24,670 nt of DNA from a virus. Location: positions 1-24,670 of IMG/VR virus record IMGVR_UViG_3300010938_000131; one strand, written 5' to 3'. Shown piece after piece: positions 3,385 to 24,670 of this stretch. Positions within the stretch are counted from its first letter, which is position 1. Every line of letters begins with the position of its first letter. The notes beneath the pieces were generated by a model. It saw only the letters and a list, made by a program, of their open reading frames with translations, did no database searches and was not told the DNA's origin. Made by a program: the position numbers and the translations under genes.

Positions 3385-3756
3385 TCACAATCCTCGCTGC
3401 TCCAACTCACGATATATGTCGTAGGAGTAATCTACCAGCAAATCAGGGTCAAGGTCATCTATGCGCACACACCTGGGCGGCTTGCGCGCCCAGCGTCCGC
3501 TGATTTGCTTGCACTGCATTAGTGCTGATTTATGCGCGGCCCCCAATAACCTGCGCCATAGATATGTTATGAGCTTCGAGCGGTTGGGGTCGTAATCCTG
3601 TAAAGCATCCATGCCAGCGGCCACAGTTGCCGATAGCGTCTCCTCGTAGTCCACGTGACGCGGGTAATGCACTATCACTCGACGCACGATTATGTTTGCC
3701 AGCCTCTTGATTTCTTTTTCGTCTCTGCCCATTTTTATTTCCGTTCGATTCCTCAT
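3385..3756 (-). CDS. Small sigma-70 region 2-like protein
   Basis: A 123-residue protein. Residues about 39-80 (DYEETLSATVAAGMDALQ, then DYDPNRSKLITYLWRRLLGA) match the pattern of sigma-70 region 2, where a DL.QEG..GL..A...FDP.RG..F.TYA pattern binds core RNA polymerase and the -10 element. No region 4 follows, and the rest is a basic then acidic tail. The start at 3756 has AGGAGG eight bases upstream; an alternative ATG at 3732 lacks this. It is the first gene of the leftward unit, behind a candidate promoter at 3846-3874. It may redirect host RNA polymerase to phage promoters, for example the recurring AATAACTATAATT element, or it may be a region-2-derived helical protein without sigma activity. 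Fold recognition is moderately confident; function is inferred. Confidence 0.7.
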   Translation of the reverse strand: MRNRTEIKMGRDEKEIKRLANIIVRRVIVHYPRHVDYEETLSATVAAGMDALQDYDPNRSKLITYLWRRLLGAAHKSALMQCKQISGRWARKPPRCVRIDDLDPDLLVDYSYDIYRELEQRGL

Positions 3757-3961: not shown

Positions 3962-3974
3962 GGCTGGGTATAAC
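3945..3974 (+). promoter_or_regulatory. Strong sigma-70-like rightward promoter
   Basis: TTGAAA (3945-3950) and TATAAC (3969-3974) each match the bacterial consensus at five of six positions with an 18-base spacer. The predicted start is near 3981. Nothing with a convincing start codon follows closely. The first recognisable element downstream is the CRISPR-repeat-like hairpin at 4083, in the orientation this promoter would transcribe. Confidence 0.6.
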
Positions 3975-4082
3975 TATGTATGGAGAGCGCAATTGGATTT
4001 TTGGGTTGCTTTGGCAATGTAGTAGTGTAATACTGGCTGGGGCGAGCAAAAATAGCCCAAATCTCGCAAGCAGTAAACGCCA

Positions 4083-4113
4083 GTCGTGCCCGCAGGGGCG
4101 CGGGGATTGAAAC
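4083..4113 (+). CRISPR. Solitary type I-C-like CRISPR repeat, no array and no cas genes
   Basis: The 31-base unit begins GTCG, as type I-C repeats do. It forms a seven-base-pair stem between CGTGCCC (4085-4091) and GGGCGCG (4096-4102), with one G-U pair and the loop GCAG, and ends with GGGATTGAAAC (4103-4113). Known type I-C repeats of about 32 bases have the same plan: GTCG, a GC-rich stem of the CGCCCC type, then TGGATTGAAAC. No second copy lies at array spacing on either side and no cas gene is present. It is therefore not a working array. A decoy for Cas5/Cas7 or a remnant of a mini-array are the main readings. Confidence 0.7.
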
Positions 4114-4164: not shown

Positions 4165-4332
4165 ATGATGCCTGTTGTGGGCTGGGCAGGGGTTCCTCCG
4201 GTTTGTGTCCTTCTTCTCCTCTGCCTGGCCCCTCTTTTTGCTCCTAACGGTGCCACAAAGAATCCTGGCTACTCCTTATTAAGGCCACCGCCTGCCCACG
4301 ACGATGGCCGTGGAATCGTTAGAAAGAGCTAA
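4165..4332 (+). CDS. Possible small exported or membrane protein
   Basis: An open frame of 55 residues starting with two ATG codons (4165, 4168). Residues 13-26 (VCVLLLLCLAPLFA) form a hydrophobic segment that could be a signal peptide or one membrane span, followed by a Pro/Gly-rich polar tail ending GIVRKS. AAAGGAG lies 13 bases upstream, rather far for a ribosome-binding site. A perfect TATAAT (4159-4164) directly precedes the ATG but has no -35. The coding frame overlaps a good hairpin/T-tract terminator (4179-4239), so either the gene or the terminator may be accidental. No family is recognised. Confidence 0.3.
   Translation: MMPVVGWAGVPPVCVLLLLCLAPLFAPNGATKNPGYSLLRPPPAHDDGRGIVRKS
4179..4239 (+). 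terminator. Candidate Rho-independent terminator after CRISPR-like RNA
   Basis: Bases 4179-4192 can pair with 4218-4231 in a continuous 14-bp, GC-rich stem with three G-U pairs, around a 25-base loop. CCTCTTTTTG follows, with five T at 4235-4239. The long loop and short T tract make it moderate, not strong. Confidence 0.45.
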
Positions 4333-4391: not shown

Positions 4392-4433
4392 CCTCTTTTG
4401 CCCTCATGGGCAAGACATGGGACAGCCCTAAAA

Positions 4434-4474
4434 GTGTCTCATAGGTGTCTCAAAAGTGTCTCATAAGTGTCTCA
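4434..4474 (+). repeat. Four tandem GTGTCTCA iterons, 11-bp period
   Basis: GTGTCTCA starts at 4434, 4445, 4456 and 4467, exactly 11 bases apart, within units close to AAGTGTCTCAT. The spacing puts each copy on the same face of the helix, as expected for cooperative protein binding. The same core TGTCTCA returns four times at 5027-5085. Confidence 0.85.
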
Positions 4475-4597
4475 TTTTCTTCTATGCACAAGGCGTTGAG
4501 CAGAAAAGGTATTTGCGTAAGTTGTTATATTGCAACAGGTTGTGAAAAGTCGCGTTTCGTAAGTCATTGGAAATCAACAAGTTATGACTTCACGTAA

Positions 4598-4641
4598 AGG
4601 ATTTGTCAAGATTTTGTCAAGGATTTGTAAAGATTTTCAAA
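4598..4641 (+). repeat. Four tandem AGGATTTGTCA-type iterons, 11-bp period
   Basis: Units at 4598 (AGGATTTGTCA), 4609 (AGATTTTGTCA), 4620 (AGGATTTGTAA) and 4631 (AGATTTTCAAA) repeat every 11 bases with decay toward the right. A reverse-complement copy of the core, TTGACAAAT, is at 4733-4741. This is a different family from the GTGTCTCA repeats but has the same period. Confidence 0.8.
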
Positions 4642-5025: not shown

Positions 5026-5085
5026 GTGTCTCAAATCAAGAAAAAATCTGTCTCAAATCAACAAAAATCTGTCTCAAATGTCTCA
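5026..5085 (+). repeat. Second TGTCTCA cluster, about 21-bp spacing
   Basis: TGTCTCA is found at 5027-5033, 5049-5055, 5070-5076 and 5079-5085. The first three are 22 and 21 bases apart, two helical turns, inside longer units of the form TGTCTCAAATCAA followed by A-rich sequence and ATC. It repeats the core of the 4434-4474 array about 590 bases away. Confidence 0.8.
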
Positions 5086-5189
5086 TTTGGAGAATCGGCC
5101 TAAACCTGGCATACCACCTGCTATTATCATGGCGTAGGCTAGCAGGTGACCAGCCAAAAAAAGAAAAAAGAAAGGCAGTACGAGAAAGG

Positions 5190-5243: not shown

Positions 5244-5798
5244 ATGAACGACACTATCAACAGCACTATCAATGACACCAGCACTTGCAATATAAATAAG
5301 CGATGTGCCCTCTGCGCAGCAGCCAGAGACATCTTTAATCCCGTCGTGGAGGTGGGCGGGAAATGGGTAATCATAACCTCGGTATGTGGCGGCGGCGCAC
5401 CGTTGCTTAGTTGGCACGGCAAGGCGGAGGATATAATCCACCTATGTAATCAGATATCCTTGCTAGATATACGAGAGGTGGAGGTAGGTTACGTGGCCAA
5501 TCTCAGATTTATGGGCGTTTGGGAAAACTTTTGGCCTCCGTATATCTATAATATTGAGACTTCGATTTCAATTAATCCTGAGCGGCCCATGATAGATGTT
5601 AAGCGGGAGTATCTTACCAATCTAGGTGTCCCTGCCAATATCGTGGATGGCCTAGCACCTAAGATGTCGGTAATAGAGTGCGCGGATGTGCAGCGGTCTA
5701 CGGTGGAGAGTTTGGCCGGTGCGCCCTTGGAAGAATACGTCAAAAAACTAGCTTACATCGGGTTGGGTCCCTGCAACGACCCCATGAGGGGTTGGTGA
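5244..5798 (+). CDS. Unknown early protein with Cys-rich N-terminus
   Basis: A 184-residue protein of unknown function. The first 19 residues are a low-complexity Asn/Thr/Ile stretch with the repeat NDTINST/NDT. A CALCAAARD motif (residues 22-30), with further Cys at 16, 48 and 68, could bind a metal. GGKWVIITSVCGGGAP follows, then a mixed alpha/beta body with EVGYVANLRFMGVWENFW near the middle. No membrane segment is seen. AGAGGA lies six bases before the ATG. It is the first gene after the origin and CRISPR-like RNA and forms a short unit with the gene at 5898, ended by the terminator at 6225-6291. Position suggests early expression, so host take-over, counter-defence or replication control are possible, but the sequence does not decide. 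Confidence 0.7.
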   Translation: MNDTINSTINDTSTCNINKRCALCAAARDIFNPVVEVGGKWVIITSVCGGGAPLLSWHGKAEDIIHLCNQISLLDIREVEVGYVANLRFMGVWENFWPPYIYNIETSISINPERPMIDVKREYLTNLGVPANIVDGLAPKMSVIECADVQRSTVESLAGAPLEEYVKKLAYIGLGPCNDPMRGW

Positions 5799-6291: not shown

Positions 6292-6300
6292 GACCTTTTT

Positions 6301-6369
6301 AGAAATTCTCGCAAAAAACTGAAAAGTTCTATGGCTGGTAGAAATTCTCACAAAAAACTGAAAAATTCT
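6301..6369 (+). repeat. Pair of 30-bp direct repeats upstream of late region
   Basis: Bases 6301-6330 and 6340-6369 match at 28 of 30 positions, with a nine-base spacer (39-base period). Each begins with the small palindrome AGAAATTCT and ends with a related AAAAGTTCT or AAAAATTCT. They sit between the early terminator and the late leader element, where an activator or repressor of late transcription would bind. Confidence 0.75.
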
Positions 6370-6371
6370 GG

Positions 6372-6409
6372 TGTTACAGAAATAAGTGGGAATAACTATA
6401 ATTGGAGGG
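6372..6409 (+). promoter_or_regulatory. Late promoter/leader element, copy 1
   Basis: GTTACAG..AA is followed by AAGTGGGAATAACTATAATT (6384-6403) and GGAGGG (6404-6409), directly ahead of the gene at 6414. It includes a perfect TATAAT (6397-6402). GTTACA lies 18 bases upstream as a possible -35 (four of six). A near-copy is at 8109-8146 and shorter relatives are at 15966 and 21930. Since a start from this -10 would fall at the ribosome-binding site, the conserved part may act in the mRNA leader instead. Confidence 0.55.
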
Positions 6410-6413
6410 CTAT

Positions 6414-6629
6414 ATGGACAACATAGAGCACGTGAAATACTATCTACGCAAGGCCATGCGTACCGTCTGCAAGCCATGCAGAGATAGATACATAGCATCG
6501 GTGCTACAGGTTGCAGAGCAACTAGACCTTGACGAAGTCACGCAGCTGACGCCTGAAGAAATAGACACAATCCAGCAATGGATTAAAGAGACCACAAAAC
6601 ATGCCGAGAAAACCCAAACAGCCACCTAA
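6414..6629 (+). CDS. Small helical protein of late operon, unknown
   Basis: A 71-residue, mostly helical protein. A CKPC motif (residues 19-22) in an early basic segment could bind metal or form a disulphide. Then follow an acidic stretch (LDLDEVTQLTPEEIDTIQQW) and a polar tail. I chose ATG 6414, which has GGAGGG just upstream, over an in-frame TTG at 6402. It is the first gene after the late leader element, and its end overlaps the next gene by 29 bases. Its place ahead of the terminase genes would fit a packaging accessory protein, but no family is recognised. Confidence 0.65.
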   Translation: MDNIEHVKYYLRKAMRTVCKPCRDRYIASVLQVAEQLDLDEVTQLTPEEIDTIQQWIKETTKHAEKTQTAT

Positions 6630-8108: not shown

Positions 8109-8146
8109 GTTACAGGAAACAAGTGGGAATAACTATAATTGAGGGG
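8109..8146 (+). promoter_or_regulatory. Late promoter/leader element, copy 2
   Basis: GTTACAG..AA and the exact 20 bases AAGTGGGAATAACTATAATT (8121-8140) recur here, starting ten bases after the terL stop and ending at the portal ribosome-binding site. TATAAT is at 8134-8139. Compared with copy 1, the segment between GTTACA and TATAAT is one base longer. Such identity between two intergenic sites points to a functional element. Confidence 0.55.
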
Positions 8147-8155
8147 CGGAGATAT

Positions 8156-9307: not shown

Positions 9308-10201
9308 ATGCCAGACCAAGAAATACAACATATAGTTTCGGGCGAATTGATTTCCAAGTCTGCTGGTGATAACGAAAACAAAACTATATCGGCAATCATC
9401 ACACGTCGTGTTGTGGATAGGGACAGGGAAGTGATAGAGCCAACGGGTATTAAGATTGACAAGTTTCTCGAAAATCCAGTATTGCTTTGGTCTCATGTGA
9501 GACAACAGCCGCCCGTAGGGCGTGTGGAAAACTTGCGACTATCCGAAGATAAGTCGGCTATAGTCGCTGACCTTATTTTTGCCGAAACCCCTGCGGCTTT
9601 AGAAATTGCAAACCTTGTTAAGTCAGGATTTTTGCGGGGCGTATCAATCGGCATCGCCGCAAAAAAAAGAATTGCAAAGGGTACTAAAGAGTATGATGAT
9701 TACATTGCAAAGTATCCGTCAACGGCTGGGGCTGTGTCAATAATTACTGAATCAGAGTTGTGGGAATTGTCGGTGTGCACCATTCCTGCCAATCAGGATG
9801 CTTTGATTTTGCGCGCTCAAAGTGATGCAGAGATGGATATGTACGGCGCAATGGTGGCGTCTATGATTGAGGGCAAGGGGCTGGAGTACAAGCCTTATCC
9901 TCACGAGCATGCCGCAAGGCAATTGCCGCCAGATATTTTTGATAGTTTTCGGCGGGTTAACAATATGTTTGGCGATGGGATTGATGTAATCTTTGGACGG
10001 CTGAAAGAATCCCGCAAATGGGCAATACAGTCTATTCGATTTGATGCGACTAAGTGGACAGTAGAGGCGGCTAAAAAGTGGCTAAAAGACCACGGCTACA
10101 AAGACGATGTCGAGCCAGCCAAGCCGGAAAAATCTGCTGATGTGACAGAAATCAAAGGTGTGGAAATCAAAGGCAAATGGGAGGTAGTGCATGAAAATTA
10201 A
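9308..10201 (+). CDS. HK97-type prohead protease with extra C-terminal domain
   Basis: A 297-residue serine protease (peptidase U35-like) that matures the prohead by cutting capsid N-terminal arms. The catalytic histidine is in LLWSHVRQ (H63) and the serine in RGVSIG (S113), with ELWELSVCTIPANQDA (150-165) typical of the family. The protease ends near residue 170. A further domain (about 198-265) contains PHEHAARQLPP, IDVIFGRLK and KWTVEAAKKWLKDHGY, a module also met in other phage and prophage proteins. A charged tail follows. AGGAG upstream overlaps the portal stop. It overlaps the capsid start by 11 bases. Confidence 0.92.
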   Translation: MPDQEIQHIVSGELISKSAGDNENKTISAIITRRVVDRDREVIEPTGIKIDKFLENPVLLWSHVRQQPPVGRVENLRLSEDKSAIVADLIFAETPAALEIANLVKSGFLRGVSIGIAAKKRIAKGTKEYDDYIAKYPSTAGAVSIITESELWELSVCTIPANQDALILRAQSDAEMDMYGAMVASMIEGKGLEYKPYPHEHAARQLPPDIFDSFRRVNNMFGDGIDVIFGRLKESRKWAIQSIRFDATKWTVEAAKKWLKDHGYKDDVEPAKPEKSADVTEIKGVEIKGKWEVVHEN

Positions 10202-11327
10202 ACTGTTGGCTGATGTGAACAACACGTCGGCGGGTAGTATCGTGATTTGCGATGACAATGTAGGGCAGCAACTGATTGCGGATAAGCAGGCTGTGGAGTA
10301 TGTGGAAAAATCTAACGTGGAGGAAAAAAACATGGAACAGATTAAGGGTAAAGCTGAGGATTCTCTGGGTGTTGCGGTTAAGAAAGTTATTGATGGCGAA
10401 TTGTCTTCGCTTGTTGTCAAGGCTCCGTCTGGAATTAATGAATCAACTGATGCTGATGGCGGCTATCTTGTCACTCAGCCGGTTGCCGACAAACTTTTCG
10501 GCGCGGCTTTTTCTGGTGCTGTGATTTACCCGAAGTGCGCCAAACTGCCGGTGCCTGATAAGGCTAATGGCCTTAAGGTATCATATCTGGCGCACAATAC
10601 GGTCACTCGCACAAGCACTCCAAGGGGCTACTGGCTATCTGAGGGCGGCCAGAAAACTGCGACTAAGTTTACGTTTGGGTCGCACACGCTTAATCTCGGC
10701 AAGTTGGTGTTTTATGTGCCGATGACAGACGAGATTATGGAGGATGCCCCGCTGCTGGAGCAGTATGTAATCTCGCAGGTCAAGGGTCGCATCGGGTGGA
10801 TGCTTGATGATGCAATTCTTAATCTGTCCACGGCCACGTCCGGCATGATGGGCATTTTTGATGCCGGTTCTGTCGCGTTTCTAGCGACTCCGGCTGCGTC
10901 TGCGTCCACGGCTGCGTATCTGGTTAGTCTGTATTCCGGCGTCATGCCGTCACTGCGTGGTAGTGCGGAGTGGTACATGAGCAACGCTCGCTGGCAGACT
11001 CTGATTGCCGCTGTTGGTGCTGGCACCACGGCATCGCCTATGCCTATTGTTGATGTTGCGGGCAAAACTATCCTTGGCCGTCCGGTTAATGTGATGGAAC
11101 AGATGGCCGCAACGGGTAGTGCTGGTGACATACTGTTTGGCGATTTTGCCAACGGCTATGCGGTGCTCGAAAAAGGCGAACTCGAAATCAGCATGTCCAA
11201 GGATGTGCGGTTTGAATATGACGAGACGGTTCTTAGGTTTGTGTTGAGGGTCGCCGGTGCGCCGGTGATTGCCAAGGTCACGTTGCCTGATGGCAGTGTG
11301 GTTGGCGCGTTCTCGACTCATAGCTGA
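10191..11327 (+). CDS. Major capsid protein, HK97 fold, with fused N-terminal module
   Basis: A 378-residue HK97-fold capsid subunit. Residues 1-45 (KIKLLADVNNTSAG, then VGQQLIADKQAVEYV) resemble the free-standing small proteins often found beside phage capsid genes, and here they are in frame with the capsid. An internal ATG at 10332 (residue 48) has its own strong GGAGG eight bases upstream and would give a 331-residue capsid beginning MEQIKGKAED. Residues 48-77 would be a short delta-like arm. The mature body starts around KAPSGINEST, with ADGGYLV (88-94) and the expected P-domain and A-domain sequence to GDFANGYAVLEKGELEI. Both starts look usable. A second capsid-like gene follows 85 bases later. 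Confidence 0.93.
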   Translation: MKIKLLADVNNTSAGSIVICDDNVGQQLIADKQAVEYVEKSNVEEKNMEQIKGKAEDSLGVAVKKVIDGELSSLVVKAPSGINESTDADGGYLVTQPVADKLFGAAFSGAVIYPKCAKLPVPDKANGLKVSYLAHNTVTRTSTPRGYWLSEGGQKTATKFTFGSHTLNLGKLVFYVPMTDEIMEDAPLLEQYVISQVKGRIGWMLDDAILNLSTATSGMMGIFDAGSVAFLATPAASASTAAYLVSLYSGVMPSLRGSAEWYMSNARWQTLIAAVGAGTTASPMPIVDVAGKTILGRPVNVMEQMAATGSAGDILFGDFANGYAVLEKGELEISMSKDVRFEYDETVLRFVLRVAGAPVIAKVTLPDGSVVGAFSTHS

Positions 11328-11412: not shown

Positions 11413-12372
11413 ATGGAATTCAAGGAAATATGCCAGATTTTGCGCAAAAGCCCGTCGGGCATTAACGAGCTATCGGACTCGCAAGGCGGATACTGTGTAT
11501 CCACCGAGTTGTCCGAGGCTATTACTCAGGACATGATATATGCCTCGCCGCTGGTGTCGAGTGTCAAGATTGCGCCAGCTTCCGGCGGCGTGGTGCAGTT
11601 GCATCGTCTAATTGATGAGAATGGCTACAGGGCTGGAGTATATTGGGTCGGAGAGGGCGACCAAAAGACTCCTGATTACCCCAGATTTTCAGGCAGAGTG
11701 AGCAGGCTGCACAAACTTGTTGCATTAATACCTGTAACAGAAGAAATACTTAATGACAACGAGCGCATGGTGTATGAGTATACCAGGGGCTATCTGGTCG
11801 AGCATTACACCAGAGCACTTGAGTCGGCTATTGTTTCCGGCAACGGAAATTACACCATACACGGCATTGCAAATACCGGCTCGCAGTCCACTGTTACTGT
11901 TACAACGCCTAACCCGCTTACCGCCAATGCGCTGAGGCTTTATGTTGATTCTCTTTCGCCAACAGCCAAAAATGCAGCATGGTTTGTTTCAAAAACTAGA
12001 TATGGCGAGATACTTGACCTGATTGCGTCAGGTGCTTTGCCGGTGGCTGTCTGCAATTATGAGGCTGGGGCATTGTGGCTATATGGCCGTCGAGTATATG
12101 AGCTTGGGTCGCTGGCAAGTCCAGTGGATATTATACTTGGTGATTTTTCGCACTATCTGCTTGCCGTGCGTGGATTGCAAAGCGACCGTATGGAGTCTGC
12201 AATCAAAATCGAAGTCGGACTCAAATACCAGACAGACGAGAAACTGCTAAGATGTGTAATCAGGATGCAGGGTGATGCTACCACAATTACGACCAAGCTG
12301 CCTGATGACCCCGCGCGGGTTGTTGGCAGCTTTGTGGTGCCCTATGTGTCCCATGGAGGTACATCGGTGTGA
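11413..12372 (+). CDS. Second HK97-fold capsid paralogue
   Basis: A 319-residue protein that aligns with the preceding capsid along most of its length. KSPSGINELSDSQGGYCV (12-29) matches KAPSGINESTDADGGYLV, YWVGEGDQKTP matches YWLSEGGQKTA, LVALIPVTEEIL matches LVFYVPMTDEIM, and ILGDFSHYLLAVRG matches ILFGDFANGYAVLEKG. It starts almost at the presumed mature end of the first capsid, with only about 11 residues ahead of the shared motif, so it lacks a delta/scaffold arm. AGGAGG lies eight bases before the ATG. It may be a minor capsid subunit such as a vertex protein, or a co-assembling partner. It overlaps the connector gene by four bases (GTGA). Confidence 0.88.
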   Translation: MEFKEICQILRKSPSGINELSDSQGGYCVSTELSEAITQDMIYASPLVSSVKIAPASGGVVQLHRLIDENGYRAGVYWVGEGDQKTPDYPRFSGRVSRLHKLVALIPVTEEILNDNERMVYEYTRGYLVEHYTRALESAIVSGNGNYTIHGIANTGSQSTVTVTTPNPLTANALRLYVDSLSPTAKNAAWFVSKTRYGEILDLIASGALPVAVCNYEAGALWLYGRRVYELGSLASPVDIILGDFSHYLLAVRGLQSDRMESAIKIEVGLKYQTDEKLLRCVIRMQGDATTITTKLPDDPARVVGSFVVPYVSHGGTSV

Positions 12373-15716: not shown

Positions 15717-16095
15717 AATTATCAAAGCAGTAGTCAGCATGTTAAGAACCGGATTGACCGGCATCAATGTCTGGTATTCGGTCGCCCCAGAGGGGGCTGA
15801 TTACCCATTTGTGACAGTTACTGCAGTGGGTGAATCTGTGACACGTGGCTTTGACATAGACATAAGCAAATTGCTGTTGCAAATCAGCGTTTTTGATAAT
15901 GACTCGTCCCCAGGGACAACGATAGAAATTATGAAATCTATAGAGGGATTGCTTGACCGAGCGGCAATAACTATATCTGGAGGGGGCATGGTGTTGTGCT
16001 CGCTAAAATCTGATAACATAATAAGACATGACACAAAAGATGATTATTGGCATGGGATTGCGACTTACAATGTCACAGCCCAAAAGGATGCGTAA
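15700..16095 (+). CDS. Tail terminator protein (DUF3168/gp17-like)
   Basis: A 131-residue protein that probably caps the tail tube and joins it to the head. VWYSVAPEGADYPFVTVTAV, then DISKLLLQISVFDNDSS and TTIEIMKSIEGLLD follow the family pattern of a short helix, the YPFVTV strand and a long strand-helix pair. Size is normal for the family. It lies between head-closure and gp10-like genes, the expected order. Within the coding region, 15966-15986 contains a copy of the AATAACTATA...GGAGGG element followed by an in-frame ATG at 15988. Confidence 0.8.
   Translation: MILAAEIIKAVVSMLRTGLTGINVWYSVAPEGADYPFVTVTAVGESVTRGFDIDISKLLLQISVFDNDSSPGTTIEIMKSIEGLLDRAAITISGGGMVLCSLKSDNIIRHDTKDDYWHGIATYNVTAQKDA
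15966..15986 (+). promoter_or_regulatory. Intragenic copy of AATAACTATA/GGAGGG element
   Basis: AATAACTATATCTGGAGGGG at 15966-15985 closely resembles the elements at 6391 and 21930, and it too is followed by an ATG (15988). It lies within the tail terminator gene, so it may be chance coding sequence or may promote internal expression. Confidence 0.3.
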
Positions 16096-20672: not shown

Positions 20673-21934
20673 ACAGTATAAATCCAACAAGACATAAGTG
20701 GCTGCATCACGGCGGTAAGATAAACAAAATCATTGCTGCCTGCAATAAGTTTCTTAAGATGCAGTTCAGCCAGAATGATTTTATTGTTGATACAAGTTCC
20801 GAGCAAGTCACTACAGTATCGTTACGCAAATCATTTCCGCGTGTGATTGTTGAGCCTTTTACGATTCTTAAAGTAGCCAACAGCGGAACTTATGACTACA
20901 AGTGTGTTGCGGGCACCGTGCAATTGTTTCTGGGTGACAAAACAAGCGAGAAGAAACTTTGGTGCGACTCATGCGGCGGTGAAGCACAAAACAATTACGA
21001 TTACTCGCTGCTGGATACCAATAATCCGCATATCTATCTCGTGGTAGATGTTGATGCCGCAAATGCAACAATCAGCAATGTACATACTCAGACTCTTGCT
21101 GATGTTTCTAACTTTTATTCCAATGGTTCGTTTTACATTCACTTGGGCGATTTTTATGACAGAGACGGCGAGCTTTGTTTTACCCAAAAAATCACAGGAG
21201 ATATTGAGCTACATGTTGTGTTGCCCGATGGGGCCGAATCCAGCAACATCGAAACAAATTCTCTGGACTACGCAGGGGCATATCTCCAGCTTTACAAGTT
21301 TGCTGATGCGAGCCAAAACACAGCCGTTGTAAAAATAAATGACAAGATACAATATGTGGTAACAAATACTGTGCCGAGTTCGTGTGGATGTGTGGCTGAC
21401 CCTGGTGATTTGTTCGCTGGACTGTCATGCGGAAATCATAAACACGTAATAGATTATGCCGCAAATGCTGGCAATGCGAATTTTGCAAACTCATCGAATT
21501 ACTCAAGCAGCTCAGGCAGTGCCGGTATGGCATGGGCTGTAATTAATATCTCAGACCACCAGCACTCGGAGTTAAGTGGCCTAAATAACGATGACCATCA
21601 GCAGTATTGGCTTGTTAACGACGGCTACACTCGCAACAAGGGTTCGAGCATAGGCAAAACAAATGGAGTCATGGTAATAGACCTGAATTCCCCCGCCCTG
21701 GTGGGCAACTGGAGTTATGATAATATCCAAGGCAATACTGTTACAGCCGCCAATGCCAATGTTGGTAATATCAACGTGGGCCAATTATGCCAGGTCAATC
21801 ATCTGACTGTTTTGGGCAATGTTGTGACAGAGATTGGCAACGGAGCAAACACCGATACCGTTGTGCTTAATCTGGATGGCGGCGGCACAATCAAAGGCAA
21901 ATTTATTCGAGGAATTTTCGTCTTGGCGGAATAA
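20669..21934 (+). CDS. Tail fibre or spike protein
   Basis: A 421-residue protein with features of receptor-binding fibres. The first 20 residues contain TRHKWLHHGGKINKII, a short helix that may dock it to the tail. A CDSCGG motif (99-104) and HKH (257-259) are possible metal sites. DHQHSELSGLNNDDHQQY (296-313) is the HxH-rich motif common in tail fibres, and after it come Gly/Asn/Val-rich beta repeats, ANANVGNINVGQLCQVNHLT among them. ATGA overlap with the gene before. It ends in the next leader element. Confidence 0.8.
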   Translation: MNSINPTRHKWLHHGGKINKIIAACNKFLKMQFSQNDFIVDTSSEQVTTVSLRKSFPRVIVEPFTILKVANSGTYDYKCVAGTVQLFLGDKTSEKKLWCDSCGGEAQNNYDYSLLDTNNPHIYLVVDVDAANATISNVHTQTLADVSNFYSNGSFYIHLGDFYDRDGELCFTQKITGDIELHVVLPDGAESSNIETNSLDYAGAYLQLYKFADASQNTAVVKINDKIQYVVTNTVPSSCGCVADPGDLFAGLSCGNHKHVIDYAANAGNANFANSSNYSSSSGSAGMAWAVINISDHQHSELSGLNNDDHQQYWLVNDGYTRNKGSSIGKTNGVMVIDLNSPALVGNWSYDNIQGNTVTAANANVGNINVGQLCQVNHLTVLGNVVTEIGNGANTDTVVLNLDGGGTIKGKFIRGIFVLAE

Positions 21935-21948
21935 CTATATTAGGAGGG
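21930..21948 (+). promoter_or_regulatory. AATAACTATATT/GGAGGG element before exported-protein module
   Basis: AATAACTATATTAGGAGGG overlaps the stop of the fibre gene and provides the ribosome-binding site for the gene at 21954. TATATT (21936-21941) could act as -10. The arrangement equals the elements at 6391 and 8129. Confidence 0.5.
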
Positions 21949-21953
21949 CCTAA

Positions 21954-24354: not shown

Positions 24355-24670
24355 GAGCAAGTTGTATAATCTGTTTGTGTTTTGCATTATCTTTGTTTGC
24401 TCAAGACAAGCAAGATATTGGCCTAAGCCCATTGACTGAGGCTAAAGTTAGTTTTGTCAAAGCGCAAATCGTTGATGGGAAAGTGGCTGGCCTTTATCTG
24501 CCCACTGATGCGCAGCGAGACGATTACATGAAGTCCATAGTAACTGTTTCGGCTACTTATGGCACAGACAACTCAACCACCAACTCTCGTTTCGAGGTGC
24601 CCTACAAGACCCTTGCCAAGGCATTGCAAGATGCTTCTGCTGGAGCGGTGATTGTTGTCATAGACCAAGA
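24351..24670 (+). CDS. Exported small protein, N-terminal part (continues at 56-191)
   Basis: The first 107 codons of a 151-residue protein that crosses the circular join. MRASCIICLCFALSLFA is a signal peptide, cut probably before QDKQ. It has three Cys within it but no proper lipobox, so a soluble exported protein is more likely than a lipoprotein. The mature part begins DIGLSPLTEAKVSFVKAQ and holds NSRFEVPYKTLAKALQDA. It starts in an ATGA overlap with the coiled-coil gene. Its place suggests an outer partner of that protein (spanin-like) or another member of the exported module. No family is recognised. Confidence 0.75.
   Translation, partial: MRASCIICLCFALSLFAQDKQDIGLSPLTEAKVSFVKAQIVDGKVAGLYLPTDAQRDDYMKSIVTVSATYGTDNSTTNSRFEVPYKTLAKALQDASAGAVIVVIDQ
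24616..24670. repeat. Right copy of 55-bp terminal overlap
   Basis: Identical to bases 1-55. See the left copy: joining the two gives a circle of about 24,615 bp and restores one intact gene. Confidence 0.95.

Follow-up and report, generated by a model that had tools for sequence, protein, structure and literature searches.

A solitary type I-C-like CRISPR repeat unit in a small phage genome as a candidate RNA anti-CRISPR

Introduction

A total of 2,103 solitary CRISPR repeat units have been reported in viral sequences, and one of type I-C, RacrIC1 of a Bifidobacterium prophage, blocks type I-C immunity and restored infection by a targeted phage in PAO1::IC (PMC10651486). RacrIC1 lies in a Bifidobacterium pseudocatenulatum prophage next to acrIC5, 11 nt after the acr gene (PMC10651486). 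The unit described here is, like RacrIC1, a solitary I-C repeat in non-coding DNA of a phage genome without cas genes. Both have a hairpin and a ATTGAAAC-type tail, the RacrIC1 hairpin being taken from the description in that paper rather than from a comparison of letters. RacrIC1 differs in that it was tested experimentally and adjoins an acr gene, whereas no known acr gene was recognised near the present unit.

In type I-C systems, cleavage of the repeat by Cas5 leaves handles of 11 nt (5') and 21 nt (3'); the enzyme remains on the hairpin after cutting, and the 5' handle is probably bound by a second copy (PMC5965380). RacrIF1, from a Thiocystis violascens prophage, is a repeat mimic that traps Cas proteins in a useless subcomplex, as we propose for the present unit. 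RacrIF1 belongs to type I-F, with cutting by Cas6f and a Cas7f filament; in type I-C, Cas5 both cuts and probably binds the handle, and the trapped complex should therefore differ. Phage CRISPR mini-arrays (reviewed in PMC11656645; contig L002 below) also place a host-type repeat in a virus genome without cas genes. They contain at least two repeats and a spacer, whereas the present unit is one repeat.

Results

We identified the 31 bases GTCGTGCCCGCAGGGGCGCGGGGATTGAAAC at exactly 4083-4113 on the + strand of the window, the whole 24,670-base stretch of DNA that was analysed. The preliminary description of a 31-base unit with a GC-rich stem and a GCAG loop was confirmed: the unit is a stable hairpin followed by an 11-base tail. 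Its parts are as follows.

4083-4113, + strand: solitary type I-C-like CRISPR repeat unit, 31 nt (sequence, fold, array matches, BLAST)
4084-4103, + strand: unit hairpin, arms 4084-4091 and 4096-4103, loop GCAG 4092-4095 (fold, pair probabilities 0.95-1.0)
4103-4113, + strand: predicted 5' handle GGGATTGAAAC (sequence; 11-nt I-C handle, PMC5965380)
4114-4140, + strand: A-rich unpaired stretch 3' of the unit, about 27 bases (folds)

The predicted fold has an energy of −14.9 kcal/mol (z = −3.0) and an 8-pair stem, made up of 7 strong pairs and a U-G pair at the base; a second U-G pair lies at 4087/4100. The seven inner pairs kept a probability of at least 0.95 in 5/5 longer transcripts folded. 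The handle GGGATTGAAAC occurs a single time in the whole virus record. Because the I-C handle is reported as 11 nt (PMC5965380), Cas5 of type I-C would be expected to cut between 4102 and 4103, and the A-rich stretch that follows may offer room for Cas7 loading. With up to 3 mismatches allowed, the type I-C repeat scheme matched the window once and matched 0 of 100 shuffles, and the best partial repeat match within 120 bases on each side of the unit was 16/31. The unit stands alone, as had been described.

We searched 84,980 bacterial and archaeal genomes for I-C-like units with the pattern GTCGNGCCCNNNNGGGCGCGNGGATTGAAAC and found it in 27 stretches, most of which are arrays with a spacing of 65-67 bases. 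The array repeats come from several phyla, and consensus repeats of Xanthomonas, Rhodanobacter, Lysobacteraceae, Pirellulaceae and Cystobacterineae equal the unit at 27/31 bases. Two single array copies, in Burkholderia Leaf177 and in a Spirochaetales MAG, equal it at 28/31. Cas5 of type I-C (TIGR01876, above the curated cut-off) was detected in 9/13 genomes with matching units as compared to 1/14 control genomes. Two of the four matching genomes without TIGR01876 (L013, L016) contain a lone unit only in the stretch read; both are in bacterial MAGs with ordinary chromosomal genes as neighbours and were set aside. A BLAST comparison with the 44 collected repeats gave a top score of 38.2 bits at 4083-4113; scores in the rest of the window and in its reversed form were 24-26 bits. 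Because arrays of I-C genomes match at 27/31 and Cas5 is present in 9/13 of the genomes, the type I-C identity of the unit is well supported, and its sequence kinship to type I-C repeats is real.

The unit and the type I-C arrays share a common plan and a length of 31 nt. Unlike the phage unit, the arrays carry C at position 5 and, in most cases, T at position 21, and their loop bases differ; they also have many copies of the repeat and are accompanied by cas genes. The deviations of the unit fall in the loop, at one stem position kept as G-U and at one position that varies among arrays. With positions 5 and 21 alone left free, the unit was absent from the 84,980 genomes. Since this search was empty and the BLAST score lies under the 41.1 bits used by SRUFinder, the unit is not close in sequence to any array repeat seen.

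The preliminary description had assigned the unit to the type I-C plan and had also read the G-U pair and the GGG before the tail end as changes that may alter Cas5 binding or processing. The first part stood, on the array matches and the Cas5 genes, and the second was not supported. The GGG position is T, C, A and once G in natural arrays, and G in the phage unit L083, indicating natural variation. The G-U pair keeps the stem, and neither feature points to altered Cas5 binding.

We compared the unit with the definition of a solitary repeat unit used by SRUFinder. SRUFinder sets a minimum of 90% identity over 90% or more of a known CRISPR repeat; the unit has 90.3% identity over 31/31 bases to two single array copies (variants in L020 and L030) and 87% to the array consensus repeats. 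The score threshold is a BLAST bit score of at least 41.1 with a database of 17,823 repeats, and the 38.2 bits of the unit, obtained against the 44 repeats collected, are lower, although the full database might contain a closer repeat. SRUFinder also excludes units with another full or partial repeat (>70%) within 100 bp, and none was present here (flank maximum 16/31, one window match at 3 mismatches). The unit lies outside confident ORFs, as the ORFs that cover it (44 aa on the + strand, 111 and 51 aa on the − strand) all have negative codon scores. Its stem and ATTGAAAC tail are those of the arrays in TIGR01876-carrying genomes.

The virus record has a direct terminal repeat of 55 bases (1-55 = 24616-24670), and the record is therefore probably a complete genome of ∼24.6 kb. 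The small phage is circularly permuted or terminally repeated. PHROGs names a terminase, a portal, a protease, two head proteins and connectors. Two adjacent genes (10191-11327 and 11413-12372) both match phrog_10, the major head protein, indicating a duplicated head protein. In agreement with the preliminary description, no cas genes were found among the ten non-structural proteins scanned against PADLOC; the remaining proteins tested are, by PHROGs, mostly those of head, connector and tail. The unit lies in 1.5 kb of DNA devoid of convincing genes; the leftward block on one side encodes a primase-like protein and a 123-aa protein, and the rightward block on the other begins at 5244. No anti-CRISPR family was found for the neighbouring small proteins. 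Non-coding DNA beside the primase contains short direct repeats with an 11-base period (GTGTCTCATAA; GATTTTGTCAAG) at 4429-4477, 4594-4640 and 5041-5090, likely a replication origin. A tandem 31-base repeat (TAGAAATTCTCGCAAAAAACTGAAAAGTTCT) with 39-base spacing occupies 6300-6369, upstream of the gene at 6414.

The following features around the unit bear on its expression.

3965-3990, + strand: fifth copy of the TGGGAATAACTATAATTGGAGGGC-type motif of 26 bases, located 112 bases upstream of the unit
4006-4034, + strand: weak promoter-like site, TTGCTT-17-AATACT; a TG precedes the second box (hand-relaxed scan)
4165-4332, + strand: possible 55-aa ORF, 51 nt after the unit, AAAGGAG ahead of its ATG (ORF and codon scores)
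4179-4239, + strand: 14-pair GC-rich stem, arms 4179-4192 and 4218-4231, then CTCTTTTT (fold)

The 26-base motif occurs throughout the phage, upstream of genes at about 6414, 8150 and 21954 (6387-6412, 8124-8149 and 21926-21951), with a fourth strong copy within a gene at about 15962-15987. The copy at 3965-3990 scores 19.7 bits, a value reached by 0/200 simulated genomes, and it is possibly a promoter or leader element. The motif takes in the ribosome site of genes, yet the 3965 copy has no gene directly after it. The standard sigma-70 promoter scan found none on the + strand near the unit. The 123-aa protein (3385-3756, − strand) weakly matches sigma-70 region 2 / FliA-WhiG in NCBIfam (E 7e-5, below cut-off); the motif may be read by this protein as a phage sigma factor. 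Downstream of the unit, the stem-loop at 4179-4239 (−29.1 kcal/mol, z = −4.1, 0/200 shuffles) was not listed by the terminator scan because its loop of 25 nt is long for a terminator; the hairpin and T-run may nevertheless be the end of a short RNA. Given the motif copy upstream and the strong hairpin with T-run downstream, a short RNA across the unit is plausible. A low codon score and overlap with this strong hairpin make the 55-aa ORF doubtful as a gene.

The exact 31-base unit was absent from IMG/VR, a search of Rfam with the unit gave no match, and BLAST in phage and plasmid records gave partial matches only, mostly genic. We searched for a host with the major head protein in ∼290 genomes of each of four phyla (those of the Thermoguttaceae, Omnitrophota, Spirochaetes and Bacteroidales MAGs), where identity was only 21-33% and no host emerged. 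For two of these phyla, 392 and 393 genomes were searched for the unit with up to 3 mismatches, and none had it. No phage relatives were found via the primase; the terminase yielded five (28-34%), whose loci have no such unit, and the head protein yielded one (40%). None of these searches recovered a close relative of the phage.

Widening the I-C pattern to loops of 4-6 bases gave 35 matching stretches in IMG/VR. About 26 of these are distinct solitary units, the present one included, and the rest are arrays, mini-arrays and contig-end cuts. Unit L083, whose flanks lay outside the flank test, is a further solitary-looking unit and has GGGG as in the present one. Solitary I-C units in the phage contigs L053 (358 and 955), L055, L057, L059, L061, L081 and L082 mostly lie 11-35 bases before a same-strand ribosome site and start codon. 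Contig L002 (IMGVR_UViG_3300028327_000048) has at 567-661 a two-repeat type I-C mini-array with one spacer, between apparent coding regions. A same-strand start codon with a ribosome site at most 100 nt downstream follows 10/26 solitary units (again counting the present one), as compared to 4/26 on the other strand. We set aside a claim of start-codon excess, as 10 versus 4 is too small; the difference may be due to simple co-transcription in compact genomes.

Discussion

We consider it rather likely, from the features of the locus and the published systems, that the unit is a candidate RNA anti-CRISPR, a phage-borne type I-C repeat mimic that would act as an RNA decoy of a kind already described. 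Since RacrIC1, also a solitary I-C unit, inhibits I-C immunity, such a role for the phage unit is reasonable. The unit would be transcribed into a short RNA that starts between about 3985 and 4040, and the hairpin and T-run near 4240 may mark its end. When the infected cell carries a type I-C system, Cas5 would bind the unit hairpin, cut at its 3' base and remain bound. The downstream piece would carry a normal-looking 11-base handle followed by unstructured RNA and could nucleate a Cas5-Cas7 complex that has no useful guide. Each piece would divert Cas proteins from real crRNAs, to the benefit of the phage. One repeat per RNA could thus occupy two copies of Cas5, the first left on the hairpin and the second probably on the handle, and could also seed a Cas7 filament that lacks a useful guide.

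The unit could instead be a functionless leftover, either a repeat of a former phage mini-array or host array DNA acquired by recombination. It differs from the nearest array repeats at three to four positions, mini-arrays of two repeats exist in phages, as in L002, and solitary I-C-like units are also found in bacterial genomes without detected Cas5 of type I-C (L013, L016). Free decay would not be expected to spare the hairpin and the ATTGAAAC tail as these differences do; the stem pairing is fully kept and the flanks contain no second repeat or remnant, and we regard such a fossil as unlikely, though a possibility to be reckoned with. A hairpin arisen by chance or for an unrelated purpose, as part of a replication origin or in transcription control, would suit the region beside the primase, where 11-base tandem repeats and AT-rich stretches give an origin-like appearance. 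The I-C repeat match spans both stem and tail, is seen in none of the shuffles and stands clear of the BLAST background, and this explanation, already unlikely, is in our estimate very improbable. Still less probable is a one-spacer crRNA, formed by the repeat and the next bases, that would turn host Cas proteins on the host itself or on another phage. The unit would provide a proper 5' handle with a stretch of spacer length behind it, but a second repeat is absent, the 37 bases after the unit are A-rich with no match in phage records, and their 26-base core has no exact match in IMG/VR.

The placement of solitary units before genes allows a different role, in which a phage gene would carry the repeat hairpin in its 5' leader and its mRNA would be bound or cut by host I-C Cas5, making output dependent on the presence of type I-C. 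The AAAGGAG and ATG that follow the unit at 51 nt agree with this, as do the start codons that follow 10 of the 26 solitary I-C units on the same strand. That excess is small and compatible with co-transcription, and the 55-aa ORF has the low codon score and hairpin overlap described above; a leader element is accordingly improbable here. We give slightly less credence to a host-sensing switch, in which I-C Cas5 would cut or bind the leader of a phage transcript, tuning the downstream gene to the presence of type I-C while also being titrated. If such a switch existed, the solitary I-C units before genes in other phage contigs would be the same device. Leader placement becomes testable with the survey, which gives the contexts of ∼26 solitary I-C units from IMG/VR contigs, some of them immediately ahead of start codons.

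The RNA anti-CRISPR reading, if the unit is active, would place a further type I-C RNA anti-CRISPR in a small phage that lacks near relatives in the collections. An active unit would also be a natural variant, with U-G pairs, a GGG handle and a length of 31 nt, for probing the tolerance of type I-C Cas5.
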